Source: a virus
Reading direction: 5' to 3' (one strand)
IMG/VR virus record: IMGVR_UViG_3300032334_000379
Span: 1-33,856 of that record
DNA length: 33,856 bases
How positions within the stretch are numbered: the first letter of the stretch is position 1; every line of letters begins with the position of its first letter. Below are positions 516 to 17,385 of this stretch, in pieces. The notes beneath the pieces were generated by a model. It did no database searches. It was not told where the DNA came from and saw only the letters and a program-made list of their open reading frames with translations. A program made the position numbers and the translations under genes.

Positions 516-538
516 TGAGCAAGTGTATAAACTGCTCA
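516..538 (+). repeat. Stem-loop of covarying family, copy 1
   Basis: Arms TGAGCA (516-521) and TGCTCA (533-538) enclose an 11-base loop AGTGTATAAAC. It lies between the stop codon of the gene ending at 480 and tRNA-Glu, and is preceded by CC. The stem pairs change in step with the other copies at 1788, 3729, 4288 and 17363, while the loop end TAAAC is nearly constant. This is the pattern expected for a conserved RNA structure. No strong U-tract follows, so a simple intrinsic terminator is unlikely. Confidence 0.7.
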
Positions 539-543
539 CTTTT

Positions 544-615
544 GGTCCCATCGTCTAGTGGTCAGGACATCAGGTTTTCATCCTGAAAGCGAGAGTTCGA
601 TTCTCTCTGGGACTA
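544..615 (+). tRNA. tRNA-Glu (anticodon TTC)
   Basis: The acceptor arm GGTCCCA pairs with TGGGACT (first pair G-U) and the discriminator is A. The anticodon arm TCAGG/CCTGA has loop TTTTCAT with TTC at positions 34-36, and the T-arm contains GTTCGATTC. No 3' CCA is encoded. It stands alone in the intergenic cassette between the genes at 88 and 763, away from the four-tRNA cluster at 22.1-22.5 kb. Confidence 0.95.
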
Positions 616-624
616 CTTTTCACC

Positions 625-643
625 GCACGTCATTTTACCGTGC
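625..643 (+). repeat. Inverted repeat GCACG...CGTGC, copy 1
   Basis: The 19-base sequence GCACGTCATTTTACCGTGC can form a five-pair stem. An almost identical copy (one base different) lies at 1843-1861. Both sit between the covarying stem-loop and the ATTACGAW-N13-CCCCGAA element, so the order of modules is conserved between the two intergenic regions. Confidence 0.6.
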
Positions 644-682
644 CCCGATTTGGTAACGATTAGGTTAAGAATGCAAAATTGT

Positions 683-710
683 TTTACGAAACACTTGACA
701 AATCCCCGAA
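683..710 (+). repeat. TTTACGAA-N13-CCCCGAA element
   Basis: TTTACGAA (683-690), thirteen bases, then CCCCGAA (704-710). The first base differs from the ATTACGAA of other copies. The -35 hexamer TTGACA of the next promoter lies inside the N13 spacer and CCCCGAA lies in the promoter spacer. A protein bound here would therefore compete directly with RNA polymerase. Confidence 0.6.
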
Positions 711-723
711 ATAATGGGATAAT
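695..723 (+). promoter_or_regulatory. Sigma-A-like promoter for the DUF932 gene
   Basis: TTGACA (695-700), a 17-base spacer and GATAAT (718-723), with ACTTGACAAA context shared by other strong -35 boxes in the window. The leader runs about 33 bases to ATG 763 and carries GAAAGGTG as ribosome site. It overlaps the dispersed element at 683-710, so repression or activation through that element is plausible. Confidence 0.75.
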
Positions 724-762
724 TGAGTATCAAATAAATCCAACAATGAAAGGTGTGTCCCT

Positions 763-1776
763 ATGGCTCACGAATTAGAAATCAACGAAGCAACTGGCGA
801 AGCGTCTTTTGCTTCTCTACGCCAACCTGCTTGGCACAATCTTGGAACTGTGTTTCAGGAAGAAGTATCAACTAGCGAAATGCTATCCTTAGCAAAACTA
901 GACAACTGGAATGTTCGTCTTGAAGATGTAGTTGTCCCTACTGGTTTTTCTAGTGATAGAAACTACTCATTCGTATCAAGAACTAATCCATTCAACGCAG
1001 AACAGACAGACATTCTTGGTGTCGTTGGTGAGCGTTATGTTCCATTACAGAACGAAGACTTGTTCTCGTTTGGTGATAACCTGCTAGATGGTGGTGGTCG
1101 TTGGGAAACTGCTGGTTCAATCAAGGGTGGCAGACAAGTATTCGGTTCAATCGCATTAGAGCGTGAGAGCGTTCTTGACCCTAATGGCGTTGGAGATGTT
1201 GTCAAGTCTTACCTATTGCTAAACACATCTCACGATGGTTCAATCGCAATTCAGGCTTCAATCACTCCTGTTCGTGTAGTTTGTGCTAACACTCTAAACC
1301 TTGCTCTATCTTCTCTAAAAGGTAAAAAGGGTATCAAGCAAACTTTCAAGATTAGACACACACAAACAGCAGAAGGTAAAATCGCAGTTGCTCGTGAAGC
1401 GTTGGGTCTTGCTAATCACTACCTAGACGAGTTTGACCTACTTGCTAAGTCTATGATTGAAACAGAAATCACTCAGGCTAAGTTTGACGAGATTGTTCTA
1501 AAAGCGTATCCAATGCCAACTAAGGACAGCAAGGGTTCTATGAAAAAGTGGAGCGACAAGGTTGAACTTATCCAATCTATCTACACTGGACAATACAACA
1601 ACACCATTGCTGGAACTGCTTGGGGAGCAATGAACGCTCTAACCGAACGCCTAGACTGGTATCGTAATGCTCGTGGTTCAAACAACGAAAGCATTTATGC
1701 TTCTGCTTCTGGTTTTGACCCTGTAATCAACGCTGAGAAAAATCGCATAATGAACTTGGTTCTCGCAAGCGTATAA
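763..1776 (+). CDS. TIGR03299/DUF932 phage-plasmid-like protein
   Basis: A 337-residue protein matching the DUF932 (TIGR03299) family found in phages and plasmids. It has the characteristic opening with PAWHNLGT (about residues 22-29), a central GGGRWETAGSI stretch (about 110-120), LLLNTSHDGS (151-160) and TPVRVVCANTLNLAL (169-183). The length is normal for the family. The biochemical role of the family is not established; some members act in recombination or are expressed early. It is the largest gene of the left arm and has its own strong promoter and a GAAAGGTG ribosome site. Confidence 0.88.
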   Translation: MAHELEINEATGEASFASLRQPAWHNLGTVFQEEVSTSEMLSLAKLDNWNVRLEDVVVPTGFSSDRNYSFVSRTNPFNAEQTDILGVVGERYVPLQNEDLFSFGDNLLDGGGRWETAGSIKGGRQVFGSIALERESVLDPNGVGDVVKSYLLLNTSHDGSIAIQASITPVRVVCANTLNLALSSLKGKKGIKQTFKIRHTQTAEGKIAVAREALGLANHYLDEFDLLAKSMIETEITQAKFDEIVLKAYPMPTKDSKGSMKKWSDKVELIQSIYTGQYNNTIAGTAWGAMNALTERLDWYRNARGSNNESIYASASGFDPVINAEKNRIMNLVLASV

Positions 1777-1787
1777 TCTCGCAGACC

Positions 1788-1809
1788 TGAGCAAGTCTAA
1801 AACTGCTCA
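1788..1809 (+). repeat. Stem-loop of covarying family, copy 2
   Basis: Arms TGAGCA (1788-1793) and TGCTCA (1804-1809) with a 10-base loop AGTCTAAAAC, preceded by CC. It starts 12 bases after the stop codon of the DUF932 gene. The stem is the same as copy 1 but the loop differs in sequence and by one base in length. Confidence 0.7.
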
Positions 1810-1842
1810 CCATTTCCTACTTGACAAAGTGGGCAAATCGGT

Positions 1843-1861
1843 GCACGTCATTTCACCGTGC
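1843..1861 (+). repeat. Inverted repeat GCACG...CGTGC, copy 2
   Basis: GCACGTCATTTCACCGTGC, one base different from the copy at 625-643. An alternative stem CGGTG (1839-1843) with CACCG (1854-1858) is also possible, so the element could switch between two folds. Confidence 0.55.
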
Positions 1862-1899
1862 GGCAAATCTGAAATAGTATAAGTAAATAAAAGAGTTCG

Positions 1900-1927
1900 A
1901 TTACGATAAGGTTACATTTTCCCCGAA
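1900..1927 (+). repeat. ATTACGAT-N13-CCCCGAA element
   Basis: ATTACGAT (1900-1907), N13 containing GGTTACATTTT, then CCCCGAA (1921-1927). It matches the copy at 4540-4567 at most positions. It lies just upstream of the promoter at 1932-1960. Confidence 0.65.
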
Positions 1928-1931
1928 CCTA

Positions 1932-1960
1932 TTGCTTTTGTCAGTGGTGGTCTGTATAAT
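1932..1960 (+). promoter_or_regulatory. Promoter with TGTCAGTGG box, leaderless start
   Basis: TTGCTT (1932-1937), a 17-base spacer and TATAAT (1955-1960). TGTCAGTGG at 1939-1947 has the same ten-base spacing to the -10 as at 37 and 2277. Six bases separate TATAAT from ATG 1967, so transcription should begin at or next to the start codon. Confidence 0.7.
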
Positions 1961-1966
1961 TGTAGT

Positions 1967-2275
1967 ATGAATGAAAACGAAACTATTATCCTTACCCCTG
2001 TTTATGATGAAGAAGATGCTCCTTACATCTACCCTGACGGAAATGACCTAGAAATCTACCAGCGTAGGCAGTTTTACGCTTGGGGGATAGAAGCATTAGA
2101 GAGACAACTATGGGATAGTGCCGAACGAGGTTGGCACGATACCAGTGGTCCAGAGTTCCAGTCCTACCTAAAAATGCTTAGAAGTATAAAGATGAGTATG
2201 GAAGACAAACTAGCCTATGACAATTCTAAGATACTAGATGACGAGATGCTTGAAAAAGCGTCTATGATGTCCTAG
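1967..2275 (+). CDS. Hypothetical acidic protein, leaderless mRNA
   Basis: A 102-residue protein with an acidic N-terminus (PVYDEEDAPYIYPDGND) and a helical middle and C-terminus rich in Arg, Trp, Met and Lys. I recognise no domain. The start is fixed by the promoter: TATAAT ends at 1960 and the ATG begins six bases later, so the message is predicted to be leaderless, which actinobacteria translate well. Its stop is followed within two bases by the TGTCAGTGG box of the next promoter. Confidence 0.8.
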   Translation: MNENETIILTPVYDEEDAPYIYPDGNDLEIYQRRQFYAWGIEALERQLWDSAERGWHDTSGPEFQSYLKMLRSIKMSMEDKLAYDNSKILDDEMLEKASMMS

Positions 2276-2276
2276 A

Positions 2277-2298
2277 TGTCAGTGGTATCCCCTATAAT
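2277..2298 (+). promoter_or_regulatory. Promoter with TGTCAGTGG box and TATAAT
   Basis: TGTCAGTGG at 2277-2285 and TATAAT at 2293-2298, with ten bases between TGTCAG and the -10. The -35 region has no clear hexamer. It drives the gene at 2326 and probably the overlapping genes to 3339. Confidence 0.65.
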
Positions 2299-2325
2299 AG
2301 AAACCTAACAGAAAGAGAAAACCCT

Positions 2326-2559
2326 ATGAAAAGATACTATGTAGAAATCCAAGTAAATTACTGTGGAGACATTGAAGCAGAAAGCCCAGAGCAAGCAGAA
2401 GAAATGGCTTGGCATTCTTACTATGGCGATAACGCTACTCTACAATACGATAGCGTAGAAGACATTAGAGTTGATGAGTATGATGTCTGCGATACCTGTG
2501 GTAATGATGAGCAGGAATACTGTGAATGCGAACCAGAAGAAGAAGAAGATAATGAGTGA
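2326..2559 (+). CDS. Small acidic Cys-rich protein
   Basis: 77 residues. The N-terminal half (MKRYYVEIQVNYCGDIEAES) resembles the short beta-strand plus helix modules seen in many phage proteins that begin K-x-Y-x-V. C55-x2-C58 and C66-x-C68 could bind one zinc, and the tail is almost all Glu and Asp. GAAAGAGAAAA provides a ribosome site. It begins a run of four overlapping genes and its stop codon overlaps the next start. Function unknown. Confidence 0.8.
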   Translation: MKRYYVEIQVNYCGDIEAESPEQAEEMAWHSYYGDNATLQYDSVEDIRVDEYDVCDTCGNDEQEYCECEPEEEEDNE

Positions 2560-2902
2560 TTGTGATTGCGAAAGAGTAGAGTGTCCTAAACACGAAGGCA
2601 ATTTTGATTGTAATTCATTCTGCGACATCTGCGAAGGTAATCAAGATTACTGCCCTACCCACGATGAATGGGAAGCAGAACAAGCAAACATTTATCTAAC
2701 TATGTATAAGGAAAGAGAAGAAGATATGGAAAAAACTATGTTGGAAGAACACAGAGAAGAACTAGCAATGCTAGAACACGAACTACACACTAAAGCATTG
2801 AGCAGATTTGCTATTGCGTGTATTGAAGGTCGCATTAGCGATTTGGATAGTATGATTGCTCAGGACGAATACTGGGAGAAGCAGGAGAAGAAGTATGCTT
2901 GA
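2552..2902 (+). CDS. Cys/His-rich small protein with helical C-terminus
   Basis: Chosen start ATG 2552 overlaps the upstream stop (ATGAGTGA). It gives 116 residues and removes an unlikely N-terminal extension that would be a frame-shifted copy of the upstream gene. Cys and His residues cluster at C4, C6, C11, H14, C20, C24, C27, C34 and H37, which suggests one or two zinc sites. Residues about 45-116 are a long charged helix with heptads. The layout suggests nucleic-acid or protein binding; no family is recognised. Confidence 0.8.
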   Translation: MSDCDCERVECPKHEGNFDCNSFCDICEGNQDYCPTHDEWEAEQANIYLTMYKEREEDMEKTMLEEHREELAMLEHELHTKALSRFAIACIEGRISDLDSMIAQDEYWEKQEKKYA

Positions 2903-3167
2903 ACTAACTGACGAACACTACGAAACTAAGAGAATGGTTTCAGCAACAATTACATACCTGATTGATGTCAATAAAGATAACATCTTCATCAGCGAAGTAG
3001 AAGACTTTGATACCGAAGACGGAACCGAAGAAGACTACGAAGATTTGAAGAGAACTGACGAAGAACTAGAGCGTTCAGCAATCAACGAATTAGCAGAAAT
3101 CATTTATAATTCTGTCAAGTATAATGACCTGACAGATATGATTAGTGTGGAGTTCCATAATGTCTGA
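2895..3167 (+). CDS. Hypothetical acidic protein
   Basis: Start ATG 2895 has a good ribosome site (AGGAGAAGAAG) and overlaps the preceding stop by eight bases; the longer frame from 2856 is not supported. The 90 residues contain a beta-like segment (TITYLIDVNKDNIFISEVED) followed by an acidic helix. This looks like a small alpha/beta phage protein of unknown function, co-translated with its neighbours. Confidence 0.78.
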   Translation: MLELTDEHYETKRMVSATITYLIDVNKDNIFISEVEDFDTEDGTEEDYEDLKRTDEELERSAINELAEIIYNSVKYNDLTDMISVEFHNV

Positions 3168-3339
3168 GATGACAGATAAAGAAATCGTCCTGTCTATGAT
3201 TGATGGCTTCAAGAAAGTCAAGGGTATAAATCAAATGCCTACTCTAGAAGTATTGAAACTAATAGAGATGAGACTAAAGCGTGAAGATGAGTTCAATGAA
3301 TTTGTTAATCATGCTAGAGAAGTTTTGGCTGACATATAG
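3160..3339 (+). CDS. Hypothetical 59-residue helical protein
   Basis: Start ATG 3160 overlaps the stop codon of the preceding gene, typical of translational coupling. The 59 residues (opening MSEMTDKEIVLSMIDGFKKV) are nearly all helix, with a charged C-terminal half. It is the last gene of this operon, followed by a hairpin at 3352-3391. Unknown function. Confidence 0.72.
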   Translation: MSEMTDKEIVLSMIDGFKKVKGINQMPTLEVLKLIEMRLKREDEFNEFVNHAREVLADI

Positions 3340-3351
3340 GGATAATAGGGG

Positions 3352-3391
3352 ACCAGGGTGGTTGGATTAATTTCTGACTGCCCTGGTTTTG
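3352..3391 (+). terminator. Possible terminator after the 2326-3339 operon
   Basis: ACCAGGG (3352-3358) pairs with CCCTGGT (3381-3387) around a 22-base loop, followed by a short T run (TTTT, 3387-3390). The long loop and short T run make it a weak intrinsic terminator. It is the only structure between the operon end and the next promoter. Confidence 0.5.
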
Positions 3392-3449
3392 ACGCACGCC
3401 CCCAAAGATAACGGAATGATAACGATAGAAAAAACTTTGCCGAATACCC

Positions 3450-3478
3450 TTGACTTATAGATGGTTATGCCTTATACT
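3450..3478 (+). promoter_or_regulatory. Sigma-A-like promoter
   Basis: TTGACT (3450-3455), a 17-base spacer and TATACT (3473-3478). The predicted start near 3485 coincides with the hairpin at 3484-3501. A degenerate ATAACGAT...GCCGAA motif (3419-3444) lies just upstream and resembles the dispersed element. Confidence 0.7.
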
Positions 3479-3483
3479 TGTAG

Positions 3484-3501
3484 TATCAACAAAAGTTGAT
3501 A
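3484..3501 (+). promoter_or_regulatory. Hairpin at the predicted 5' end of the transcript
   Basis: TATCAAC (3484-3490), loop AAAA, GTTGATA (3495-3501): a perfect seven-pair stem with a tetraloop. It falls at the expected first bases of the mRNA for the gene at 3541. Such 5'-terminal stem-loops are known to slow 5'-end-dependent decay of mRNA; that role here is inference. Confidence 0.55.
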
Positions 3502-3540
3502 ATCAAGCAACAATTACCCTTCGGGAGAAAAGAGATACAA

Positions 3541-3702
3541 ATGCCAGAAATCAAGGTAGGCGACCGCTACGAAACCAAGACTAACAAGTTTGTTGGTGTA
3601 GTTCAGGAAATCGCCCAGAACAAGAACGGCTCATTCCGTATTCGTTTGGACATTGACGGAAAGTCCCACTGGACATCTGCTCAGGGAACAGTCCTAGCAT
3701 AA
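3541..3702 (+). CDS. Small basic/beta protein, possibly nucleic-acid binding
   Basis: 53 residues from ATG 3541. An in-frame ATG at 3496 lies almost at the transcription start and inside a hairpin, so it is rejected. The sequence (VGDRYETKTNKFVGVVQEIA, then GSFRIRLDIDGKSHWTSA) reads as five short beta strands and resembles small barrel folds of the SH3 or Tudor type. No named family is recognised. It is expressed from its own promoter. Confidence 0.72.
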   Translation: MPEIKVGDRYETKTNKFVGVVQEIAQNKNGSFRIRLDIDGKSHWTSAQGTVLA

Positions 3703-3728
3703 TTCATTCATAACAGAATGATAACATC

Positions 3729-3751
3729 TAGGCAAATGTCTAAACTGCCTA
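3729..3751 (+). repeat. Stem-loop of covarying family, copy 3
   Basis: Arms TAGGCA (3729-3734) and TGCCTA (3746-3751) with loop AATGTCTAAAC (11 bases). Compared with copy 1 the second and third stem pairs have changed to A-T and G-C, with both sides changing. It lies between the stop at 3702 and the next -35 hexamer, which overlaps its last base by none but begins immediately after. Confidence 0.7.
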
Positions 3752-3790
3752 TTTACAAATCCCCCTAAATCCTGTATAATTGTATTATAC
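3752..3790 (+). promoter_or_regulatory. Promoter with dyad over the -10 region
   Basis: TTTACA (3752-3757), a 17-base spacer and TATAAT (3775-3780). A perfect dyad GTATAAT-TGT-ATTATAC (3774-3790) covers the -10 and the expected start site. It could be an operator, or it could give divergent -10 boxes. The spacer contains ATCCCCCTAAAT, similar to the CCCCGAA half of the dispersed element. Confidence 0.7.
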
Positions 3791-3822
3791 AAAAAACAAC
3801 CCTAATAGAAAGTAGATACAAA

Positions 3823-4263
3823 ATGGCAAGAGCCTTATCAGTAAAAGTTCCAACATCAAGCCTAATCGCATTGCTGGAAGACAAAATCGCAACAATCAAG
3901 TCTGCTATCGCAGATTACCCAAGAGCAAAAGAGCAATACAAGGCTGACCTAAAAGCATACAAGCGTTCTGTCCTTGACCTTGCTATTGCTAAGATTACTA
4001 GCAACCCAGAAGTCTTGTTTGATAACGATAGCCTAGAAGTTGGCACATCTTATCGCAATGATGTTCAAATCACTTTGGATAAGGATTTGTTTGAGTTGCC
4101 AGAAATGCCACAGCAACCAGAAGACCCAAGCGTAAAGACTTGGATTGGTAGAGACCACACAACTAAGTTGTCTGTTTTGGAAAAGACTTTGGCTGTTCTA
4201 AAACTAACAACTCAGGAAGAAGTTTCTGCTTCCACATACAACTCTGTAATGGAGTTGCTATAA
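3823..4263 (+). CDS. Hypothetical 146-residue protein
   Basis: It has an N-terminal helical region with a likely coiled coil (LIALLEDKIATIKSAIADYP, about residues 15-34) and further charged helix to about 60. An acidic linker rich in Pro (LPEMPQQPEDPS) follows, with a short helical C-terminus. AGAAAG precedes the ATG by about ten bases. Proteins with this outline are common in actinophage early regions, but I cannot name a family. It is transcribed from the promoter at 3752-3780 and followed by two hairpins and a terminator. Confidence 0.8.
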   Translation: MARALSVKVPTSSLIALLEDKIATIKSAIADYPRAKEQYKADLKAYKRSVLDLAIAKITSNPEVLFDNDSLEVGTSYRNDVQITLDKDLFELPEMPQQPEDPSVKTWIGRDHTTKLSVLEKTLAVLKLTTQEEVSASTYNSVMELL

Positions 4264-4287
4264 ACCATAGGCTTACGCCTAAACACC

Positions 4288-4310
4288 TAAGCAAGTGTCT
4301 AAACTGCTTA
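4288..4310 (+). repeat. Stem-loop of covarying family, copy 4
   Basis: Arms TAAGCA (4288-4293) and TGCTTA (4305-4310), loop AGTGTCTAAAC, preceded by CC. The stem again differs from copies 1 and 3 by paired changes. A small separate hairpin TAGGC-TTAC-GCCTA (4268-4281) sits just before it. Confidence 0.7.
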
Positions 4311-4386
4311 CCCTATTAGGTTAGTTATCCATAATTGAAGCCCATAGTAGAGATAACCGAACTGAACGCTTCACCCTAATAAATTT

Positions 4387-4437
4387 TCCCCCTGTGAAGT
4401 CTGGACACAATCCCGAAAGTAGCAGGGGGATTTTTTT
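4387..4437 (+). terminator. Intrinsic terminator
   Basis: TCCCCCTG (4387-4394) pairs perfectly with CAGGGGGA (4423-4430) and is followed by seven T (4431-4437). The loop is long (28 bases) but the GC-rich stem plus T-tract is convincing. It ends the unit of the gene at 3823. Confidence 0.75.
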
Positions 4438-4482
4438 GGCGTGCGGCAAAATAGTTATGTAAACTAATAATCATTACAATGT

Positions 4483-4507
4483 ATTACGATGTTATAACAA
4501 TTTCCCC
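4483..4507 (+). repeat. ATTACGAT-N13-CCCC element
   Basis: ATTACGAT (4483-4490), thirteen bases, CCCC (4504-4507); the final GAA is replaced by ATG. It is the first of two copies in tandem upstream of the promoter at 4572. Confidence 0.55.
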
Positions 4508-4539
4508 ATGATTATGTAAACCTGTAGACATTGTGTTTG

Positions 4540-4567
4540 ATTACGAAGTGGTAACATTTTCCCCGAA
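4540..4567 (+). repeat. ATTACGAA-N13-CCCCGAA element
   Basis: ATTACGAA (4540-4547), N13 containing GGTAACATTTT, CCCCGAA (4561-4567). It ends four bases before the -35 hexamer. The spacer closely resembles that of the 1900-1927 copy, so the whole 28 bases, not just the ends, are conserved between these two. Confidence 0.65.
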
Positions 4568-4571
4568 AGTC

Positions 4572-4600
4572 TTGTCTTTACGAACGGTATCCTGTATCAT
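4572..4600 (+). promoter_or_regulatory. Sigma-A-like promoter
   Basis: TTGTCT (4572-4577), a 17-base spacer and TATCAT (4595-4600). The start site should be near 4607. That excludes the ATG at 4603 and supports ATG 4636 as the start of the next gene. Confidence 0.65.
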
Positions 4601-4635
4601 AGATGTATACAACCTTTACAGAAAGAGATGACCCT

Positions 4636-5184
4636 ATGCATACTATGCAGTATCTAGCAACAGAACTAGAACTTGATTTAGATGAGCAACACACAGACGA
4701 AGAACTTAGAGCCTTAGCACAAGAGCAAGTAGGCAGTTGGCTAGAGAGTGAAGCAGATGGCTTTGGCTTTGTTGGTGGCTGGTCAGACTGGTATCAGGTT
4801 GGTGGCAGGTATGAAGATGTCCCTATCCTTATCTACAACGATGAGAATGCTTGTTCATTCTTAGAAGCATTAGATATCATTGACCAGAAGCAGTTGGCTC
4901 AGTTCAACGAATACTTTACTGAGTTTGATTTTCCTACTATCAATACTGTTATGACTAAGTATTCTAATGGTGAGAATGTTGACTACCGTGAGATTTACGA
5001 AGCCAACATAACTAGTTTGTCATCTGCATTGAAGATTATGCGTGGCTACTGGAACTGGGATAGTGGTTTCTTTGACACAGAAGACTGCACAATAAAGACA
5101 TCAGCCCTACGCAAAAAACTGGGTATTGACAAGACAGCGTATCGTAGTGTATACTGTTTAGTGCCAGTAGATTTCCACTTCTAA
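4636..5184 (+). CDS. Hypothetical protein with DWYQVGGRYED motif
   Basis: 182 residues from ATG 4636, preceded by AGAAAGAG. It contains GGWSDWYQVGGRYEDVPIL (about 45-63). This is close to the D-W-[FY]-x-[VI]-G-G-R-[WY] motif I associate with a widespread uncharacterised phage protein group. Trp- and Tyr-rich stretches recur (RGYWNWDSGFFD). No enzymatic motif is visible. It is the first gene of a coupled run to 6326. Confidence 0.8.
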   Translation: MHTMQYLATELELDLDEQHTDEELRALAQEQVGSWLESEADGFGFVGGWSDWYQVGGRYEDVPILIYNDENACSFLEALDIIDQKQLAQFNEYFTEFDFPTINTVMTKYSNGENVDYREIYEANITSLSSALKIMRGYWNWDSGFFDTEDCTIKTSALRKKLGIDKTAYRSVYCLVPVDFHF

Positions 5185-5201
5185 GAGAGAGAGTAAACCC
5201 T

Positions 5202-5384
5202 ATGGAAAAGATAACAGCAACAGTTCGCTTTTGGTATTCACAAGAGTTTGAAGTTGAGATAGAAGACCCTAACGATGACAATGACATCCACGATAAGGTG
5301 GCTGAACTTGCCAACGAGATAAAGGTATGGGATGGCAACAACTCATACACAGTTGAGTTTGATGACTACGAGATTGAGTTCTGA
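5202..5384 (+). CDS. Hypothetical 60-residue acidic protein
   Basis: Opens MEKITATVRFWYSQEFEVEI, a beta hairpin, followed by an acidic helix and a final strand rich in Asp and Glu. This beta-alpha-beta layout is shared with the small proteins at 2326 and 2895. GAGAGAG precedes the ATG. Its stop overlaps the next start (TGATG). Confidence 0.75.
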   Translation: MEKITATVRFWYSQEFEVEIEDPNDDNDIHDKVAELANEIKVWDGNNSYTVEFDDYEIEF

Positions 5385-5749
5385 TGACTGAGATGACTGA
5401 AACACAATGGTCTGCTAAATATAGACCTATCAAAAACCATTTAGTTAAAGATGATACTACATCCTTTGAGACCTATGGTGAAGAACTAGACTTTGTATGT
5501 CAGCAACCACACTCTACCGTATGGACTGAGATGGATGGTGACGAAGGTGTTTACATTGTACAAGGTTACCATTTGGCTAATCGTATTCAATACTACATCA
5601 CTGAGATACCGTGGACAGATGACGATGACATCTTTATAACCATTTGTAAGTTTGTTGAGTGCGAATGTATAAATGAAGATGGCGAAGGTAAACAAGATTG
5701 TGAAACATGTTATGGAGATGGGACCTATACTGAATGGAGCATGGACTAA
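5384..5749 (+). CDS. Hypothetical protein with C-terminal zinc-ribbon-like cysteines
   Basis: 121 residues. The N-terminal three quarters lack recognised motifs. The C-terminus has CECINEDGEGKQDCETCYGDG, a C-x-C...C-x2-C-x-G-x-G pattern recalling one repeat of the DnaJ zinc centre but without the J domain. It probably binds one zinc ion. It is translationally coupled on both sides (TGATG and TAATG overlaps). Confidence 0.77.
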   Translation: MTEMTETQWSAKYRPIKNHLVKDDTTSFETYGEELDFVCQQPHSTVWTEMDGDEGVYIVQGYHLANRIQYYITEIPWTDDDDIFITICKFVECECINEDGEGKQDCETCYGDGTYTEWSMD

Positions 5750-5922
5750 TGGAAGATAAAATTAATAAGTATAACAACAACCCTGACTACGATGCAGGGT
5801 ACGAAGAAGGCTGGACAAACGCTATCAACAATGTTCTTGACATCTCACAGCAGATGCGGTATAATGATAACCTTAGTTGGAATAATGAAACCCTAGAAGA
5901 ACTGGAGCAACGAATAGTATGA
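5749..5922 (+). CDS. Small GYxxGW-motif protein
   Basis: 57 residues from ATG 5749, which overlaps the previous stop (TAATG). It carries YDAGYEEGWTNAINNVLD, a Gly-aromatic motif spaced every four residues before a helix. The same pattern is present in the proteins at 8351-8590 and 15104-15355, so the three appear to be paralogues or share a repeat module. Function unknown. Confidence 0.72.
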   Translation: MEDKINKYNNNPDYDAGYEEGWTNAINNVLDISQQMRYNDNLSWNNETLEELEQRIV

Positions 5923-6326: not shown

Positions 6327-6347
6327 GGGTTTCTGTGTCTGACTAAA

Positions 6348-6877: not shown

Positions 6878-6896
6878 TTAAATAGTATTATTAAAT

Positions 6897-11600: not shown

Positions 11601-12604
11601 ATAAAGTATTGGTAACTGGTGTAGCAGGATTTATGGGAAGCCATCTTGCGGATGAATTTTTGAAGCGTGGATATCATGTTGTTGGTATTGACAATCTTAT
11701 TGGAGGATACAAGGAGAACGTTCCCGAAGGTGTAGAGTTCTGGGAACTTGACCTTAATGATTTAGATTCTCTTCACGAACCATTTGCAGGTGTTGACCTA
11801 GTTGTTCATACTGCTTGTACTGCTTATGAAGGGTTGTCTGTATTCTCTCCTGCTCTTATTACTCGTAATACCTCGCAAATTATTGCAACTGTTATGAGTG
11901 CCAGCATCAAGGCTGGTGTTAAAAAGATTGTTCACATGTCTTCTATGGCTCGCTATGGAACGCAAGAGGTTGTTCCATTTACAGAAGACCTTTTACCTTT
12001 ACCACAAGACCCATATGGTATTGCTAAGTATGCTGGAGAACTTTTGATTAAGAACCTTGCAGAAACTCATGGTATGAATTATGTAATCCTTGTTCCACAC
12101 AACATCATTGGACCAAGACAAAAATATGATGACCCATTTAGAAACGTTGCATCCATTATGATTAACAGAATGCTTCAGGGCAAGCAGCCTATCATTTATG
12201 GTGATGGAACGCAGATGAGGTGTTTCTCATTTATGCAAGATGTAATTAATCCATTAATGATTGCTTGTGAAACAAATGTAGCAAATGGAATGACTATTAA
12301 TATTGGTCCAGATGAAGAGTTTGTAACAATCGTTGAACTTGCTGAAAAACTTGCAAAGATTTTAGACTTTAAATTAGACCCAATCTTTATGGCTGGAAGA
12401 CCACAGGAAGTGAAACATGCAAACTGTTCTGCTGATAAAGCCAGAGAGATTTTAGGATACAAAACCTCTACCACTTTAGAAGAGGGATTGACAGAACTTG
12501 TTAATTGGATTAAAGAAAAAGGAACTAAGCCATTTGACTACCACTTGCCTATTGAATTTATTACAGATAAAACTCCTAAAACCTGGACTCAAAAGTTAAT
12601 GTAA
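11597..12604 (+). CDS. NAD-dependent epimerase/dehydratase (extended SDR)
   Basis: 335 residues, normal for the family. The N-terminal Rossmann motif is VTGVAGFMGSH (G8-x2-G11-x2-G14), catalytic S115/S116 is in HMSSMARY, and Y140-x3-K144 is in YGIAKYAG. It resembles UDP-glucose 4-epimerase or dTDP-sugar enzymes. PHNIIGPRQKYDDPF and FSFMQDVINPLM are characteristic substrate-domain segments. It should interconvert nucleotide sugars for the neighbouring transferases. Its stop is one base from the stop of the convergent gene at 12606, with no terminator visible. Confidence 0.9.
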   Translation: MNKVLVTGVAGFMGSHLADEFLKRGYHVVGIDNLIGGYKENVPEGVEFWELDLNDLDSLHEPFAGVDLVVHTACTAYEGLSVFSPALITRNTSQIIATVMSASIKAGVKKIVHMSSMARYGTQEVVPFTEDLLPLPQDPYGIAKYAGELLIKNLAETHGMNYVILVPHNIIGPRQKYDDPFRNVASIMINRMLQGKQPIIYGDGTQMRCFSFMQDVINPLMIACETNVANGMTINIGPDEEFVTIVELAEKLAKILDFKLDPIFMAGRPQEVKHANCSADKAREILGYKTSTTLEEGLTELVNWIKEKGTKPFDYHLPIEFITDKTPKTWTQKLM

Positions 12605-12605
12605 C

Positions 12606-13289
12606 TTATTCATCTTTAGTTTTTTGCTTGACCAGAGATAGCATTCGTTCTGGTGTTGATGCAGAATAATATAACCAATAAAGTTCTATATTACGAAGAT
12701 GATTAAAATTAAATCCTGGGTCATGTATTTGAACATCATGTCCCAAACAATAAATATATCCATCATGTTTAATTAATTTGCTACCCTTAATGATTGTGTG
12801 TGCCAATTCAAATGCTGAATCTTCTCCGCCCCATTGAACAAACTTTTCATCCATGCCCCCAACAGACCACCATGCTTCTGGTGTACAAACATAAATGCCA
12901 CCATTGGCTTCTGTATATAATGTATGTTTAAGTAATTTAATATCTGAGCCATCAAAAAACTTTTGAGTCATTTCTTTATCAAAATATTTACAAAGTCTGT
13001 AAGGATTATGAATCATACCATCTTCTTGGCATTGTTTTATTGCTTCCAATAAAGGCTCAATTTCGGGTAGTGTATCTGCATCATTAATAATAATAACGTC
13101 ACAGTGAGCCTCCTGTGCCTTTTTTACACCATCATTACGACTGGCTGAAGCATTCCAGAATTCCCCTGGTCTATCGCTATAGAATATCTCAATGTCTGCT
13201 AAATTAGTTTTATACCAAAAAAGAACAGCCTCTAAAGGTTTTATCCTAGAAGGCTGCTCTCTCCATGGTATTACTAATCCTAGTTTCAT
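12606..13289 (-). CDS. Family 2-like glycosyltransferase
   Basis: 227 residues. KLGLVIPWREQ at the N-terminus, SASRNDGVKKAQ (about 48-59), then VIIINDADTLPE with the D-x-D metal motif (about 66-77), and VGGMDEKFVQWGGEDSAFEL (about 143-162), typical of the GalNAc-transferase/chondroitin synthase-type GT2 group. It transfers an activated sugar; the acceptor is unknown. Although on the other strand, it adjoins the sugar cluster tail to tail. The start overlaps the stop of the GroES-like gene. Confidence 0.85.
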   Translation of the reverse strand: MKLGLVIPWREQPSRIKPLEAVLFWYKTNLADIEIFYSDRPGEFWNASASRNDGVKKAQEAHCDVIIINDADTLPEIEPLLEAIKQCQEDGMIHNPYRLCKYFDKEMTQKFFDGSDIKLLKHTLYTEANGGIYVCTPEAWWSVGGMDEKFVQWGGEDSAFELAHTIIKGSKLIKHDGYIYCLGHDVQIHDPGFNFNHLRNIELYWLYYSASTPERMLSLVKQKTKDE

Positions 13290-13591
13290 TCCTCTTCATC
13301 ACCAAGGATTGCCAAAACACTAGCACTATATAAAGATAGATAGTCATTTCCATCATGCTTAAATTTCATAACATTATTAGGATTAAACATGATTTTGTCT
13401 CCTACTTTTACATCCATTGGTACACGGACACCATTCTTTAGTTGTCTACCCTCGCCTACAGCAAAGGCAACCCCAATGTTTTTTGGTTCGTCTGATGGAC
13501 CCACAGAAAGCAATAGACCAGATGCAGTCTTTTCTGGTTCTGTTTTCTTTTCTACTTTGATAATAATAATATCTTCTGGTGCTTTAATCAT
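13286..13591 (-). CDS. GroES-like co-chaperonin (Cpn10)
   Basis: 101 residues, the normal Cpn10 length. It starts IKAPEDIIIIKVEKKTEPEK like the 'P-L-x-D-R-V' first strand, has a mobile-loop region (KTASGLLL), then VAFAVGEGRQLKNG, VGDKIMFNP and YLSLYSASVLAIL at the C-terminus. Cpn10 caps GroEL and is a heptamer. Phage versions (for example T4 Gp31) can adapt host GroEL to fold capsid protein. No GroEL is in the window. Confidence 0.82.
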   Translation of the reverse strand: MIKAPEDIIIIKVEKKTEPEKTASGLLLSVGPSDEPKNIGVAFAVGEGRQLKNGVRVPMDVKVGDKIMFNPNNVMKFKHDGNDYLSLYSASVLAILGDEEE

Positions 13592-13592
13592 G

Positions 13593-14123
13593 CTATTCCT
13601 TATCGAATGCTAGTCTTGTAATTTCTTCAGATGCAAGCAGAACTGCGATAGGTGCTAGTGCTGTAATGACAACACCAATCCAGGCACGAAAGTCTACCAA
13701 TGAACCATTCCAGAAACTAAGTGTGTGAGCAACGTTAGCAATAACCGATACAATGGCAAAGCCTGTTAGTCCTGCTAGTGTTCTCCATGTGGATTCGCCA
13801 CGAGCCTTAAAGACTACAAGTGAAATAGTATATGCAAGAATAGCAGCATCAATGAACAATGCTGGTAACCATTGCAAGAATGCTGGCAAGCCTGTCCATG
13901 CAGACACCTCGTAGATACCACTAAATGAAACGGTAAAAGATGTAATCATAAGCAGCGATACCAAAGCAACAGCAGTATACAACACTGGAAGTGAGTCTGG
14001 ATTAATACGTTTAGACTTCTTCTTTACTACTGGAGACTGTGGCTCCTGTGTAATTGTTTCAGGGAACTCTACACGCTTGTTAAAGTTACCACCTTGGATA
14101 TCCCATTCTGTTAGATTACTCAT
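13593..14123 (-). CDS. DUF2637/SpdB-like membrane protein
   Basis: 176 residues. A polar basic N-terminus (to about 45) is followed by four hydrophobic segments (about 48-70, 80-102, 113-135, 143-163). The pattern 'FSGIYEVSAWTGLPAFLQWL', 'PALFIDAAILAYT', 'SVIANVAHTLSF' and a final 'APIAVLLASEE' matches the DUF2637 family found on actinobacterial plasmids and phages, where SpdB-like proteins are linked to plasmid spread. GGTATAAT, six bases, ATG gives a leaderless mRNA. Confidence 0.82.
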   Translation of the reverse strand: MSNLTEWDIQGGNFNKRVEFPETITQEPQSPVVKKKSKRINPDSLPVLYTAVALVSLLMITSFTVSFSGIYEVSAWTGLPAFLQWLPALFIDAAILAYTISLVVFKARGESTWRTLAGLTGFAIVSVIANVAHTLSFWNGSLVDFRAWIGVVITALAPIAVLLASEEITRLAFDKE

Positions 14124-14129
14124 AATTCT

Positions 14130-14157
14130 ATTATACCTTATTTATCCCATTTGTCAT
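14130..14157 (-). promoter_or_regulatory. Promoter giving a leaderless mRNA
   Basis: On the minus strand GG then TATAAT (14135-14130), six bases before ATG 14123. A possible -35 ATGACA (14157-14152) lies 16 bases upstream and inside the end of the preceding gene. Confidence 0.65.
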
Positions 14158-14425
14158 CTAATACCAGCATTGCGATAATTGCGTAGTTTGCCATATCAAT
14201 AAAAGAATCCCTAAGACTTTCATTTTCGGGGGTAGCACCAGAATCATAAAGATGGTTAATGCGAGCCAACTTGTCGTGCATTCTAACCCTAAGTCCATTT
14301 AACGCTCCTCCTGGACTACCAGAAATATTCTTCGGTCCATAGTCTTTGTGCTTTTTAAGAAGCAGTTGTTCTGCTTCATCATAGGTAATGCCAACTGCTT
14401 TTACAAATTCTTCATTTAAATCCAT
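14138..14425 (-). CDS. DUF1599-like nucleotide-modification-associated protein
   Basis: 95 residues from ATG 14425, chosen because GAGGAG lies just upstream; the longer frame has no ribosome site. LLLKKHKDYGPKNISGSPGG (about 23-42) and RVRMHDKLARINHL (about 47-60) match the DUF1599 family, also called nucleotide modification associated domain 1, proposed to act with enzymes that make or handle modified nucleotides in phages. It should be cytoplasmic. It lies downstream of two small membrane proteins. Confidence 0.78.
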   Translation of the reverse strand: MDLNEEFVKAVGITYDEAEQLLLKKHKDYGPKNISGSPGGALNGLRVRMHDKLARINHLYDSGATPENESLRDSFIDMANYAIIAMLVLDDKWDK

Positions 14426-14426
14426 T

Positions 14427-14597
14427 TTAATACTCCTCGTGATTAATTCCGTGTTTACTATCCACATACTTATGAATCTTGCGTAGTGTTCTAGCCTTTG
14501 CAAATCCGTATACCGCTAATGCGAATACAGCATTCCAAAAGAATTCAGCGATGATGTGGTTAATGCCAAATACTACTTCTAGTAGGTCGTGTTCCAT
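14427..14597 (-). CDS. Small membrane protein (56 residues)
   Basis: Begins MEHDLLEVVFGINHIIAEFF, then WNAVFALAVYGFAKA, giving one hydrophobic helix at about 16-34 and a basic cytoplasmic tail (RTLRKIHKYVDSK). The ATG overlaps the upstream stop (TAATG) and the stop lies one base before the next gene. Unknown function. Confidence 0.7.
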   Translation of the reverse strand: MEHDLLEVVFGINHIIAEFFWNAVFALAVYGFAKARTLRKIHKYVDSKHGINHEEY

Positions 14598-14746
14598 TAT
14601 TCTTTTCCTTCACAATTTAGTATTGCTTGAACTTCATTATTAGGATACTTATCCCAACAGTTTTCTTTAGGCAGGTTTGCTTGAATAATCATTGTTAATA
14701 CTATTGCAATAATAAAAAAGCCAGATATAAATATTAGCCATGTCAT
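14597..14746 (-). CDS. Small single-TM protein with two Cys (49 residues)
   Basis: N-terminal hydrophobic helix (MTWLIFISGFFIIAIVLTMI) then a polar domain with C30 and C46 that would face outside and could form a disulphide. It might be a signal anchor. Coupled to the next gene by TAATG. No family recognised. Confidence 0.65.
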   Translation of the reverse strand: MTWLIFISGFFIIAIVLTMIIQANLPKENCWDKYPNNEVQAILNCEGKE

Positions 14747-14753
14747 ACCATCA

Positions 14754-15104
14754 TCACTTATTTGTTGTTTGGTCATTCGTTAGCCATTCTACTAGTTTTG
14801 GATTGTCTTTTAATACTGCCAATAGTCCAACTTCATACATGGCAATAAAGTAATGCTCCCATGATTCAAAGTCATCTTCTTTAGTTGGTCTAGGCATACC
14901 CTCGTAGTTCATACGAACAGCGTGTAGGACTTCGTGTAGCAGTGTAACCTGCTTCTTGCCATTACCCAAACCAGATGCAACAACAATTAGATTCTTGCCA
15001 TCCAGGGTATAGCCATAAGCACCATCACTCAGCATACCATCTTCGCCAGTATCACGCTCAATAACATTGAATTTTTGTGGACCAACTTTAATTGATTTAA
15101 TCAT
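14754..15104 (-). CDS. HExxH putative zinc metalloprotease
   Basis: 116 residues. TLLHEVLHAVRMNYEG contains H57-E58-x2-H61, the zinc protease signature, and a downstream helix (SWEHYFIAMYEVGLLAVL) can supply the third ligand Glu, as in ImmA/IrrE-type and phage-borne minimal metalloproteases. DNPKLVEWL near the end is also typical of these. It could cleave a regulator, but no helix-turn-helix partner is adjacent. The start overlaps the stop of the GYxxGW gene by one base. Confidence 0.75.
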   Translation of the reverse strand: MIKSIKVGPQKFNVIERDTGEDGMLSDGAYGYTLDGKNLIVVASGLGNGKKQVTLLHEVLHAVRMNYEGMPRPTKEDDFESWEHYFIAMYEVGLLAVLKDNPKLVEWLTNDQTTNK

Positions 15105-15355
15105 TATCTAATCTTTCTAATCATACTGATAGCGGAATGAACTCCAGCAATAATTCCTGGGTTGTAGTGTTGACCATTGTTCTTTAGGTCTTTCTCAATA
15201 GCAGCAATGATTACTTTACGCTGTTCTGCAACTGCTTTCTTCCTGCCAGTCTCAAAGCCTTCGCTCCAACCCTTATTATAGCCATCTTCATAGCCCTTAT
15301 CATATTTACGTTTAAATGTATTTTGTAGGCGTGTAGCCCAATCTGGTTTACTCAT
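15104..15355 (-). CDS. GYxxGW-motif protein, leaderless
   Basis: 83 residues. KYDKGYEDGYNKGWSEGFET (about 17-36) shows five Gly-aromatic units, the longest run among the three related proteins, followed by a basic helix (GRKKAVAEQRKVIIAAIEKD). The repeats probably form one amphipathic helix. The promoter at 15362-15390 places the start six bases before the ATG. Confidence 0.78.
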   Translation of the reverse strand: MSKPDWATRLQNTFKRKYDKGYEDGYNKGWSEGFETGRKKAVAEQRKVIIAAIEKDLKNNGQHYNPGIIAGVHSAISMIRKIR

Positions 15356-15361
15356 ATATAT

Positions 15362-15390
15362 ATTTTACCGTATTTAGCGGTGTTTGTCAA
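15362..15390 (-). promoter_or_regulatory. Sigma-A-like promoter, leaderless start
   Basis: On the minus strand TTGACA (15390-15385), a 17-base spacer and TAAAAT (15367-15362), then six bases and ATG 15355. The -35 overlaps the 3' end of the thioredoxin gene. The context GCTTGACAAAC is shared with the 9148 promoter. Confidence 0.78.
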
Positions 15391-15635
15391 GCAAATAATG
15401 AGATAAGTCTGGCTTCTGTGGCTGTTCCCTTGTGGAAAATTTCTTTACCATCTACCTTGCCAATAAAGGCAGGAACTCCTCTAATGCCATGTTCCTGGAA
15501 AACGCTTACATCTTCATCAGCATCATACTTAATATAAACAATGTCAGGATTATCATTAAGAAACTTATCAATGATTGGTTGCATTTGTTTGCATGGCTGA
15601 CACCATGTAGCACTAAAATGAATTAGTTCTTTCAT
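15387..15635 (-). CDS. Thioredoxin-like protein
   Basis: 82 residues, shorter than host thioredoxins (about 105) because the first beta-alpha unit is missing. The active site W11-C12-Q-P-C15 is intact, with cis-Pro region GIRGVPAFIG (about 50-59). It should reduce or exchange disulphides in the cytoplasm and might feed electrons to ribonucleotide reductase. Its ATG overlaps the stop of the multidomain gene by one base. Confidence 0.88.
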   Translation of the reverse strand: MKELIHFSATWCQPCKQMQPIIDKFLNDNPDIVYIKYDADEDVSVFQEHGIRGVPAFIGKVDGKEIFHKGTATEARLISLFA

Positions 15636-16882
15636 TAATTACCCCTAAGAGACTTGAGTTTGTGCCCAACTAATGTATCTGTTGGCTTACCATCTTTGTA
15701 CACTCTAACAACTGCAGCAGGGTCTTCTGGTGTTCCTGTTACTGAGAAATCTGAGTTAGGAACATTGTACTTACCATTTCTAATAATTCTAACAATCTTA
15801 CCTGTTGCTGTACCGCCAGAAGAATTCCAAGAAACCATGCTACCAACACTACCAGCCTTAGATAGTTGTCCCTGGTCTGAATAATCTTTACCAAAATCAG
15901 CAAACAAAGCCTTATCTGCTTCTCTAGTTGCAATAGCACGACTCCAAGAATACCCAGAGTCACCGCCCCAAGCGTCCCACATAATTCTTCCGTTGCTTGG
16001 ATTGCTTGTGTTATTGAAATCTTTACCCTTTTTGTCTACCTCGTGACGAGAGAAGAATGAATACATGCGTTTGACCACACTAAGAGACATTGAGCGACCT
16101 GCTACGATATCTCTTGCTCTACCCCAGCCAACAGGAGTTCCTGCACCATTAGCCTTGCCCTCTTCCTTCCAACGGATAGCACGAGCAGCAGCAGACTTCA
16201 TACCAGCAGTTGGAGAATATCCGTCAGCCTTGTACATTTCTTCCATGTCCATTTCTGGCATACCGTCTTCTGGCTCCTGAACCTCTACATCAAGGTCTGC
16301 AATTTTATGTGCATCAGACATAAGCATTCCAATTGAGTATGCTGTTGGACACCAGTTATCTTCGTCTTCCTCATATTCATAAATTCTAACAGCCATTGCT
16401 GGATTTTCTGGTGTAGACTGAATAGCGTATTCTGTTCCTGCAACTCCATAAACTCCACCCTCAGTCATAACATGTTCAACAAGACCAACAACTGCACCTT
16501 CTGTTGTTAGCCCCATTACATAGTCACCCTCAACAATTCTTTCTGCTTTATACATAGCACTAATAGATGTTCCACCGCTAGAAACTGCACCAGAAGCATC
16601 CGAACCATTTCCTGGTTGAATTTTTGGTTTACGAATCTTAACTTTTTTACCACCACGCATAGATGTTGGTGTCTTTACTCCAACATTTGGGTATGTTGGG
16701 TTTGCGGTAGACGATGGATTAACACCATTATCTGCCTTATCTGCTTCGGCAGCATAGAGAGCACGAACTTGTGCTGTTGCATCTGCTTCTGTCTTGTGGC
16801 ATCCCATTACTTCGCCACCTTCTTTTACTACTGGATACCCTGAGCATCCATTTGAACCCTGTGCTCCTACTGAATAAGGCAT
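15635..16882 (-). CDS. Multidomain phage protein with DUF2945-like C-terminus
   Basis: 415 residues. The N-terminal module CSGYPVVKEGGEVMGCHKTE (13-32) is a short Cys-containing unit common on phage head-region proteins. A disordered basic linker (about 70-100) follows, then a beta domain (MYKAERIVEGDYVMGLTTEG). Next is a helical module with AAARAIRWKEEGKANGAGTP and MWDAWGGDSGYSWSRAI, seen in XkdF-like or protease-associated phage proteins. The DUF2945-like end (GSMVSWNSSGGTATGKIVRI) repeats the beta domain. It is probably a virion or maturation protein; no protease residues can be assigned. Confidence 0.65.
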   Translation of the reverse strand: MPYSVGAQGSNGCSGYPVVKEGGEVMGCHKTEADATAQVRALYAAEADKADNGVNPSSTANPTYPNVGVKTPTSMRGGKKVKIRKPKIQPGNGSDASGAVSSGGTSISAMYKAERIVEGDYVMGLTTEGAVVGLVEHVMTEGGVYGVAGTEYAIQSTPENPAMAVRIYEYEEDEDNWCPTAYSIGMLMSDAHKIADLDVEVQEPEDGMPEMDMEEMYKADGYSPTAGMKSAAARAIRWKEEGKANGAGTPVGWGRARDIVAGRSMSLSVVKRMYSFFSRHEVDKKGKDFNNTSNPSNGRIMWDAWGGDSGYSWSRAIATREADKALFADFGKDYSDQGQLSKAGSVGSMVSWNSSGGTATGKIVRIIRNGKYNVPNSDFSVTGTPEDPAAVVRVYKDGKPTDTLVGHKLKSLRGN

Positions 16883-17337
16883 TAGTTTTCCATCTCCATT
16901 TCATTTTCCATGCTGACACGAATCTGCCAGCAAAACTTTTGTGATGCAGTCTGACGGTCAGCAAAGAAATTTGCTAGACCATACTGCTTGGCTTCGTTAG
17001 CAAGGTCACTTGCTACAACCAATGCCTCAATGTGTGCCTCAATAGAAAGATAAAGGTCATTCAACATAGGCTGTGGGTCACCAACAATAACTGGCTCTGG
17101 AACTGTTGACATGTCAAAGAAATCTGTTAGTCTATATGGTGCATACTGTCTTAGTGCACGAAGCCACTCTGCATAAGTATCTGTTGCTGCATCATAGTTT
17201 AAATAAATGTCTTCAAAAAATTCGTGGAACTGCTGGAAGTCATCTCCCTCTACATTCCAGTGGTATCCATGTGCTTTAAATTTAAGGGCAACGTTATCTG
17301 CCAGTAGCGTTCTTAGTTGTGCTAGTAAATTTTCCAT
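16882..17337 (-). CDS. dps: Dps/ferritin-like DNA protection protein
   Basis: 151 residues, the size of Dps. The inter-subunit ferroxidase ligands are present in the family spacing: H26 (GYHWNVEG), H38, D53 and E57 (DTYAEWLRAL). Family members assemble into dodecamers that oxidise iron with peroxide and protect DNA. The C-terminus is acidic (MENEMEMEN), not the basic DNA-binding tail. It is leaderless: GGTATAAT, six bases, ATG 17337. It sits next to Hsp20, separated by a copy of the covarying stem-loop. Confidence 0.88.
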   Translation of the reverse strand: MENLLAQLRTLLADNVALKFKAHGYHWNVEGDDFQQFHEFFEDIYLNYDAATDTYAEWLRALRQYAPYRLTDFFDMSTVPEPVIVGDPQPMLNDLYLSIEAHIEALVVASDLANEAKQYGLANFFADRQTASQKFCWQIRVSMENEMEMEN

Positions 17338-17343
17338 TGTCTT

Positions 17344-17349
17344 ATTATA
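17344..17349 (-). promoter_or_regulatory. -10 box for dps, leaderless
   Basis: On the minus strand TATAAT (17349-17344) preceded by GG and followed by six bases and the dps ATG. No convincing -35 hexamer is present; instead the covarying stem-loop (17385-17363) occupies the area just upstream. Confidence 0.6.
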
Positions 17350-17362
17350 CCATATCTGTTAG

Positions 17363-17385
17363 TGGGCAGTTTACCGTCATACCCA
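17363..17385 (-). repeat. Stem-loop of covarying family, copy 5 (minus strand)
   Basis: Reading the minus strand: CC, then TGGGTA (17385-17380), 11-base loop TGACGGTAAAC, TGCCCA (17368-17363). One pair is T-G, the others are Watson-Crick and differ from the four left-arm copies. It lies between the hsp20 stop and the dps -10, the same stop-to-promoter position as the others. Confidence 0.65.

Follow-up and report, generated by a model that had tools for sequence, protein, structure and literature searches.

A stop-anchored RNA pseudoknot common to diverse phages, with a possible role as a 3'-end cap

A covarying pseudoknot in phage genomes

The IMG/VR record IMGVR_UViG_3300032334_000379 is a viral sequence of 33,856 nt, and the whole of it (positions 1 to 33,856) forms the window analyzed here. 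The window carries five copies of a compact H-type RNA pseudoknot, 27 to 28 nt long and located behind stop codons, which belongs to a covarying RNA family common to phages of Actinobacteria, roseobacters, cyanobacteria, and Bacillota. The initial annotation had described these copies as a family of covarying six-pair stem-loops; we confirm the five stems in position and sequence, and the covariation is strong, but each copy is a pseudoknot whose other helix had been overlooked. The layout is a helix S1 of 3 to 4 bp, a loop L1 of one C, a helix S2 of 6 bp (the stem first noted), a one-base L2, and an L3 of 5 to 6 nt with a terminal AAAC. The S1 5' strands of copies 1 to 5 (ACAC, AGAC, ACAT, ACAC, and GTC) lie immediately 5' of the noted stems, and their partners (GTGT, GTCT, ATGT, GTGT, and GAC) are inside the former loop, such that all five knots start 5 bases upstream of the stem as first described (Table 1).

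A sequence-only model, run with filters off, recovers the five copies in the window at E values of 9e-9 to 2.9e-4, with the next match at E = 1.9. This model was built partly from the five copies, so their recovery is not independent evidence; the independent evidence for the element is its spread and covariation outside the window. A pattern in which part of both helices was left free matched at least 119 stretches of viral contigs and, among the matches listed, gave 124 instances with flanks (98 distinct). Both free S2 pairs are formed in 114 of these and the three inner S1 pairs in 122. A second, independent pattern matched at least 120 stretches, from which there are 110 distinct instances among the matches listed, the scope that applies to all counts from the two pattern-selected sets here and below. 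The three inner S1 pairs are kept in 110/110 and the outer S1 pair in 97/110, and at one S1 position the pair is GC in 52 instances, CG in 43, AT in 11, TA in 3, and GT in 1. Because S1 covaries as strictly as S2, a pseudoknot replaces the simple stem-loop, which we reject.

Applied to the window and 79 related loci, the sequence-only model produced 218 matches with E values of no more than 1, of which 214 are on the plus strand, the strand to which the query gene orients the loci. Covariation was tested in a structure-blind alignment from the same model, comprising the best 150 of the 218 matches (93 distinct rows). In this alignment 99.1% of 771 cells are paired, compared to 87.6% when shuffled and 19 to 30% with partners slid, and 80 cells are altered on both sides, compared to 21 when shuffled (0/500 shuffles as high). 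Two other measures are weaker, with 6 pairs changed on both sides versus 4.5 (37/500 shuffles as high) and 9 further pair types versus 9.9 in shuffles. A descriptor identified 178 copies across the window and its relatives, compared to a mean of 4 in two passes over simulated sequence for the 79 relatives, and when it leaves L1 free, L1 is C in 173/178. Further copies in relatives and supported covariation, the two outcomes on which the initial annotation had staked its proposal, are thus both observed, and covariation backs both helices of an H-type knot.

Taken alone, the S2 hairpin has an energy of -5.7 to -8.3 kcal/mol in a folding program unable to fold knots, with z scores of -1.9 to -2.7 for four copies; that of copy 5 is no better than shuffles (z = 0.02).

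Position relative to stop codons and tRNAs

For wider comparisons we pooled 436 distinct copies obtained by running the descriptor on retrieved loci, nearly all of them viral contigs. The pool contains orthologs and a few chance matches (e.g., L128 4700), and the pooling descriptor demands pairing, the L1 C, the first T of S2, and AAC, which are therefore invariant by construction. Its 245 distinct 28-mers with a 6-nt L3 have 18 inner-S1 types and at least 25 S2 types.

The element takes its position from the upstream stop codon and not from the next promoter. Calling genes by length alone gave false antisense genes, and upstream frames were therefore restricted to codon-scored genes or to open frames with a minimum of 45 codons. 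For 379/436 copies an open frame of this minimum length ends no more than 80 nt upstream, compared to 155/436 on the antisense strand and 688/2180 at random positions. The gap between stop and knot is 5 to 9 nt in 195/436 copies (random, 52/2180; antisense, 14/436) and 0 to 4 nt in just 3/436 (random, 43/2180; antisense, 15/436). This is not a property of one gene family, as the upstream proteins with gaps of up to 60 nt fall into 121 blastp families, whose commonest median gaps are 5 (29 families), 6 (15), 7 (14), and 8 nt (10), and the distance from knot to next gene is broad. UAA is preferred at these stops and UGA is rare (5/85 and 0/117, versus 265/1082 and 316/2058 in all called genes). 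In the window, the gaps are those in Table 1; copies had been placed between a gene end and the next promoter or tRNA, and this agrees with the tRNA-Glu behind copy 1 and the promoter match behind copy 3, although it is the stop codon that fixes the position.

Among 20 upstream proteins, one per family tested, PHROGs identifies phrog_1221 of unknown function (two proteins), Hsp20, anti-restriction, DnaB-like, and weak or unknown families, with no match for 11; as so few are named, we claim no functional theme. In roseophages a copy lies behind the ribonucleotide reductase gene and ahead of a glutaredoxin or phoH-like gene, and the ICBM2 copy lies within what is annotated as the start of glutaredoxin. 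In Lactobacillus, Staphylococcus, and Bacillus phages (L226, L227, L228, L233 near position 1500) the element is in the head-gene block, preceding the scaffold gene or, in Page, the gene before the major head protein, whereas the window copies are among early-type genes.

A same-strand tRNA starts within 60 nt downstream of 31/436 copies, and 29 of these 31 start at 1 to 11 nt; a tRNA no more than 60 nt upstream is seen for only 2/436. In an earlier set, a knot lies no more than 120 nt upstream of 20/51 first-of-cluster tRNAs, compared to 95/3308 coding sequences, and the link is weaker in the second-pattern set alone (3/110 copies). The tRNAs behind knots are for Asp, and also Glu, Gln, Ser, Arg, Gly, and Cys. 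In Arthrobacter phage Amigo, for example, the order is SSB stop, 8 nt, knot, 2 nt, tRNA-Gly. With the tRNA a few nucleotides 3' of the knot there is little room for a promoter of its own, and it is therefore probably cotranscribed with the preceding gene. CCA follows the knot in 38/436 copies, where about 30 are expected from composition, and a tRNA-like CCA tail was accordingly rejected.

Sequences flanking the knot

Gaps between stop and knot of 14 to 60 nt contain a hairpin of at least 5 bp in 60/108 cases, compared to 25 +/- 3 in shuffles, and 29 of the 60 hairpins end within 2 nt of the knot. On the other side, G makes up 9 to 10% of the first 12 nt after the knot versus about 20% further out; avoidance of G at the first position prevents pairing with the L1 C. 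A U-tract had been reported absent, which holds in the window; elsewhere TTTTT occurs within the first 12 nt after the knot in a subset, namely 23/124 pattern-selected copies (1 to 6 in other 12-nt bins) and 8/130 in relatives (0 to 4 in other bins). Promoter-like sites within 150 nt downstream are in excess in relatives (52/130 versus 16 shuffled), and no such excess is seen in the pattern-selected loci (27/124 versus 22). The terminator downstream of copy 4 (Table 1) was identified by eye; it is missing from the automated listing, in which the loop limit was 8.

A possible 3'-end cap and its alternatives

Comparative sequence evidence shows a covarying pseudoknot that is anchored at stop codons, nearly touches downstream tRNAs, and often has hairpins filling the longer gaps to its stop. 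Ends that RNase P would generate at tRNAs, tight packing against the stop, and sealed gaps fit a structure that ends and protects the upstream message, and we think it an even call that the pseudoknot is a 3'-end cap shielding that message from 3'-to-5' exonucleases. The 3' ends would arise near the knot, through RNase P at tRNAs and through endonuclease cuts or 3'-to-5' trimming elsewhere; RNase P cleavage at an adjoining tRNA would yield an end directly behind it. The knot would then halt PNPase- or RNase R-type enzymes, such that the upstream coding part survives. Its position, as near the stop codon as a terminating ribosome permits, would leave little bare RNA open to cutting, and hairpins would seal the longer gaps. 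Of the processing, stability, and protein-binding roles raised in the initial annotation, a role in stability is the one in keeping with such a cap.

Several observations weigh against a 3'-end cap. No frame of 45 codons ends within 80 nt upstream of 57/436 copies, and several of the tRNA cases are orthologous (a tRNA-Asp behind the same gene) and therefore represent fewer independent events. Some copies are within gene arrays with the next start codon near, as between the roseophage ribonucleotide reductase and glutaredoxin genes, and for these and the scaffold/capsid copies of Bacillota phages a role for the downstream gene is equally natural. In addition, TTTTT within 12 nt after the knot in 45/436 pooled copies is terminator-like, and S2 is short, its hairpin being of modest stability.

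The placement could also be ribosome linked, with the knot abutting a terminating ribosome such that sliding after termination, reinitiation, or coupling to a following gene is blocked, or recycling is slowed. The onset of gaps is sharp at 5 nt across unrelated gene families, and when a stop codon occupies the A site, a knot with a gap of 5 nt has its first paired base immediately in front of the mRNA helicase site. This explanation does not predict tRNAs 1 to 11 nt downstream, and gaps often reach 15 nt or more, as they do for three of the five copies in the window; we therefore regard it as unlikely. Stimulation of readthrough or frameshifting shares the attraction of the gap, since 5 to 9 nt matches known stimulators of these kinds, such as those of murine leukaemia virus and phage structural genes. 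The gene frame is indeed more open after the stop (median 19 codons versus 10 shuffled; 40 codons reached by 19/113 versus 8/113), and gene-frame stops across gap and knot are fewer (78/183, versus 121 and 107 in the other frames). Beyond the knot, however, all three frames are equally open (medians of 12, 10, and 10 codons), and the difference therefore stems from the letters of the knot itself and the gap classes; the avoidance of UGA for UAA and the 29 tRNAs directly behind knots argue in the same direction, and we disfavor such a stimulator as very improbable. If instead the knot guards downstream RNA against a 5'-to-3' exonuclease such as RNase J, as viral xrRNAs do, then its location ahead of scaffold or capsid genes in Lactobacillus, Staphylococcus, and Bacillus phages, and of some copies directly before a ribosome-binding site, would be accounted for. 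But the position tracks the upstream stop codon and not the downstream start, and it makes little sense to guard a tRNA destined for excision by RNase P, which renders a 5' shield improbable.

We judge it similarly improbable that the knot is a transcription terminator or pause site in place of the usual hairpin. The T-runs just behind pattern-selected copies and the promoter-like sites downstream of copies in relatives are what this would predict, but most copies have no T-run, the promoter excess is absent from the pattern-selected loci, tRNAs starting 1 to 11 nt downstream would be lost, and copy 4 appears to have a separate terminator behind it. As a class the element is not an intrinsic terminator, although a subset of copies may qualify. 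Binding of the knot by a phage regulator of several messages would agree with the conserved loop letters, such as the L1 C, and has a precedent in the gene 32 pseudoknot bound by gp32, as outlined in PMC3014915. That precedent is a 5' operator, whereas the present element is behind the stops of many genes that are unrelated, in phages whose hosts are unrelated too, at broad distances from the next start, and is not a translational operator of the gene 32 type; a shared binding protein is thus quite doubtful. Least probable of all, to the point of being hard to credit, is a decoy antitoxin RNA directed against type III toxin-antitoxin systems. The ToxI pseudoknot is built of 36-nt repeats, and ToxI-like sequences can be picked up by phages, as far as PMC5772629 sets out, but the copies have no Rfam match, those in the window are single and not tandemly repeated, and a decoy has no need of a stop codon.

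Returning to the 3'-end cap, a broader proposal is more tentative and somewhat more apt to be wrong than right: that a single 28-nt knot is a phage-wide device, repeatedly recruited behind the stops of genes with no relation to one another, in phages whose hosts span several bacterial phyla, to provide a nuclease-proof, ribosome-abutting 3' end, including where RNase P excises a tRNA. If true, bacterial viruses would have their own equivalent of exonuclease-resistant RNAs, one that faces the 3' side. The element would account for the integrity of short messages in compact phage genomes and for the placement of tRNAs directly behind genes without loss of the upstream mRNA, and would supply annotators with a marker of gene 3' ends in uncultured phages, as well as a small transcript-stabilizing module.

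Relation to known RNAs

A search of the window with Rfam 15 at gathering thresholds identified tRNAs only. No copy was matched at E up to 1 in 7 loci, nor at E up to 10 around copies 1 and 4, and we note that Rfam models do not score pseudoknots. We did not find the element described in a literature search of titles and abstract openings, which covered subscription journals thinly; the 224 candidate RNAs surveyed in 2017 lay outside its scope, and the element may have been described before.

Intercistronic or 3'-untranslated structures that shield upstream mRNA include REP elements and terminator hairpins; unlike the present element, these are hairpins and not covarying pseudoknots, and are not known to be anchored 5 to 9 nt behind stops. 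Readthrough and frameshift pseudoknots are a few nucleotides downstream of a stop codon or slippery site, whereas the present stops are strong and no open extension frame continues past the knot. The gene 32 pseudoknot has a one-base L1. In T2 and T4 it is a small H-type knot of two coaxially stacked helices (as described in PMC3014915), 67 nt upstream of the start codon, that binds gp32; both it and the present element are thus small H-type knots in phage mRNA, but it is ahead of one gene's start and the present knot is behind the stops of many genes. The STAXI motif, as described by Weinberg in 2010 (PMC2864571), is a pseudoknot near genes of DNA-handling proteins, with two or three tandem repeats and often UUCG tetraloops. 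By that description the present element is a pseudoknot motif too, but not a STAXI motif, being mostly in single copies, with other loops (L3 ending AAAC), and at stop codons. The ToxI antitoxin RNA, in the account of PMC5772629, is a short pseudoknot linked to phage biology that is formed from 36-nt tandem repeats beside the toxin gene, unlike the single copies in the window.

Distribution

The initial annotation had proposed a conserved RNA structure of the phage and looked to related actinophages for further copies; the element is conserved and covarying, but not confined to actinophages. Named phages that infect roseobacters, cyanobacteria, Arthrobacter, Bacillus, Lactobacillus, and other hosts carry copies, and as some low-scoring phage matches are due to chance, we name only those checked by eye. 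Regular copies are in SIO1, ICBM1, ICBM2, CRP-6, CRP-13, Ma-LMM01, PaV-LD, cr7_1, Amigo, S-H35, and S-RIM4, and copies with one or two imperfect S2 pairs are in P12053L, A-HIS1, Mcat1, ort11, Lj771, KC5a, StB12, and Page. Vibrio phage CHOED (L232) has a variant form. A variant with the 3' part TAAAAGGCTCA in place of TAAACTGCTCA, in which the S2 pair adjoining L2 is lost or replaced, recurs at several loci (Table 1). There are also paired copies without a long gene between them, at L261 6471 and 6519 (48 nt apart) and L132 6034 and 6119 (85 nt apart).

A stricter pattern run over a set of bacterial and archaeal genomes gave 7 stretches with 8 matches; the contrast with viral contigs is indicative only, as the strict patterns differ between collections. 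Three of the 8 matches are within one CRISPR array, on the Ignavibacteria chromosome CP054675 (about 1029056-1038719; L355/L356), with 141 repeats and 140 spacers. Five of the 140 spacers carry the element in a single orientation, three whole and two cut within the first S1 strand, which suggests that hosts often encounter it. The array is close to genes for Cas1, Csx1, two Card1-like proteins, and Csm5, and is therefore of a type III system. The repeat end suggests transcription from the cas-gene strand, and if the array is read in this way, its CRISPR RNAs are antisense to the knot RNA.

Other features of the window

The phage represented by the window is probably an actinophage, judging by gene 763-1776, which is matched by 534 phage records; 441 of these are from phages of Mycobacterium, Streptomyces, Microbacterium, Arthrobacter, or Gordonia, each at <60% identity.

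Table 1. Pseudoknot copies and associated features in the window, and loci with the variant 3' part
Feature	Position	Strand	Structure	Setting
Pseudoknot copy 1	511..538	+	S1 511-514/523-526, L1 515, S2 516-521/533-538, L2 522, L3 527-532	Stop of ORF 88-480 30 nt upstream; tRNA-Glu 544-616 5 nt downstream
Pseudoknot copy 2	1783..1809	+	S1 1783-1786/1795-1798, L1 1787, S2 1788-1793/1804-1809, L2 1794, L3 1799-1803 (5 nt)	Stop of ORF 763-1776 (phrog_1221) 6 nt upstream
Pseudoknot copy 3	3724..3751	+	S1 3724-3727/3736-3739, L1 3728, S2 3729-3734/3746-3751, L2 3735, L3 3740-3745	Stop of ORF 3496-3702 21 nt upstream; promoter match 3752-3780 (11/12) from next base
Hairpin, 5 bp	4268..4281	+	TAGGC-TTAC-GCCTA	Fills gap between stop and copy 4; by eye
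Pseudoknot copy 4	4283..4310	+	S1 4283-4286/4295-4298, L1 4287, S2 4288-4293/4305-4310, L2 4294, L3 4299-4304	Stop of ORF 3823-4263 19 nt upstream
Probable intrinsic terminator	4388..4437	+	CCCCCTG ... CAGGGGG, then A and seven T	Downstream of copy 4; by eye
Pseudoknot copy 5	17363..17390	-	S1 17389-17387/17378-17376 (3 bp; outer A.G unpaired), L1 17386, S2 17385-17380/17368-17363 (one G-U), L2 17379, L3 17374-17369	Stop of minus-strand ORF 17397-17822 6 nt upstream
TAAAAGGCTCA variant	L132 6034 and 6119, L133 4193, L134 544, L135 1323, L138 8868, L145 2880, L146 7562, L148 890, L151 940, L177 7054; CHOED (L232)			

Near-identical hairpins, GCACGTCATTTTACCGTGC and GCACGTCATTTCACCGTGC, are at 625-643 (downstream of copy 1 and its tRNA) and 1843-1861 (downstream of copy 2). 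At 38-58, 1940-1960, and 2279-2298, GTCAGTGG is followed by TATAAT at promoter-like spacing (three occurrences, by eye), and these sites may be a phage-specific class of promoter. An intergenic repeat, GATTACGA...GTTACATTTTCCCCGAA or close to it, is at 1899-1927 and 4539-4567; similar strings are in relatives, and it may be an operator.

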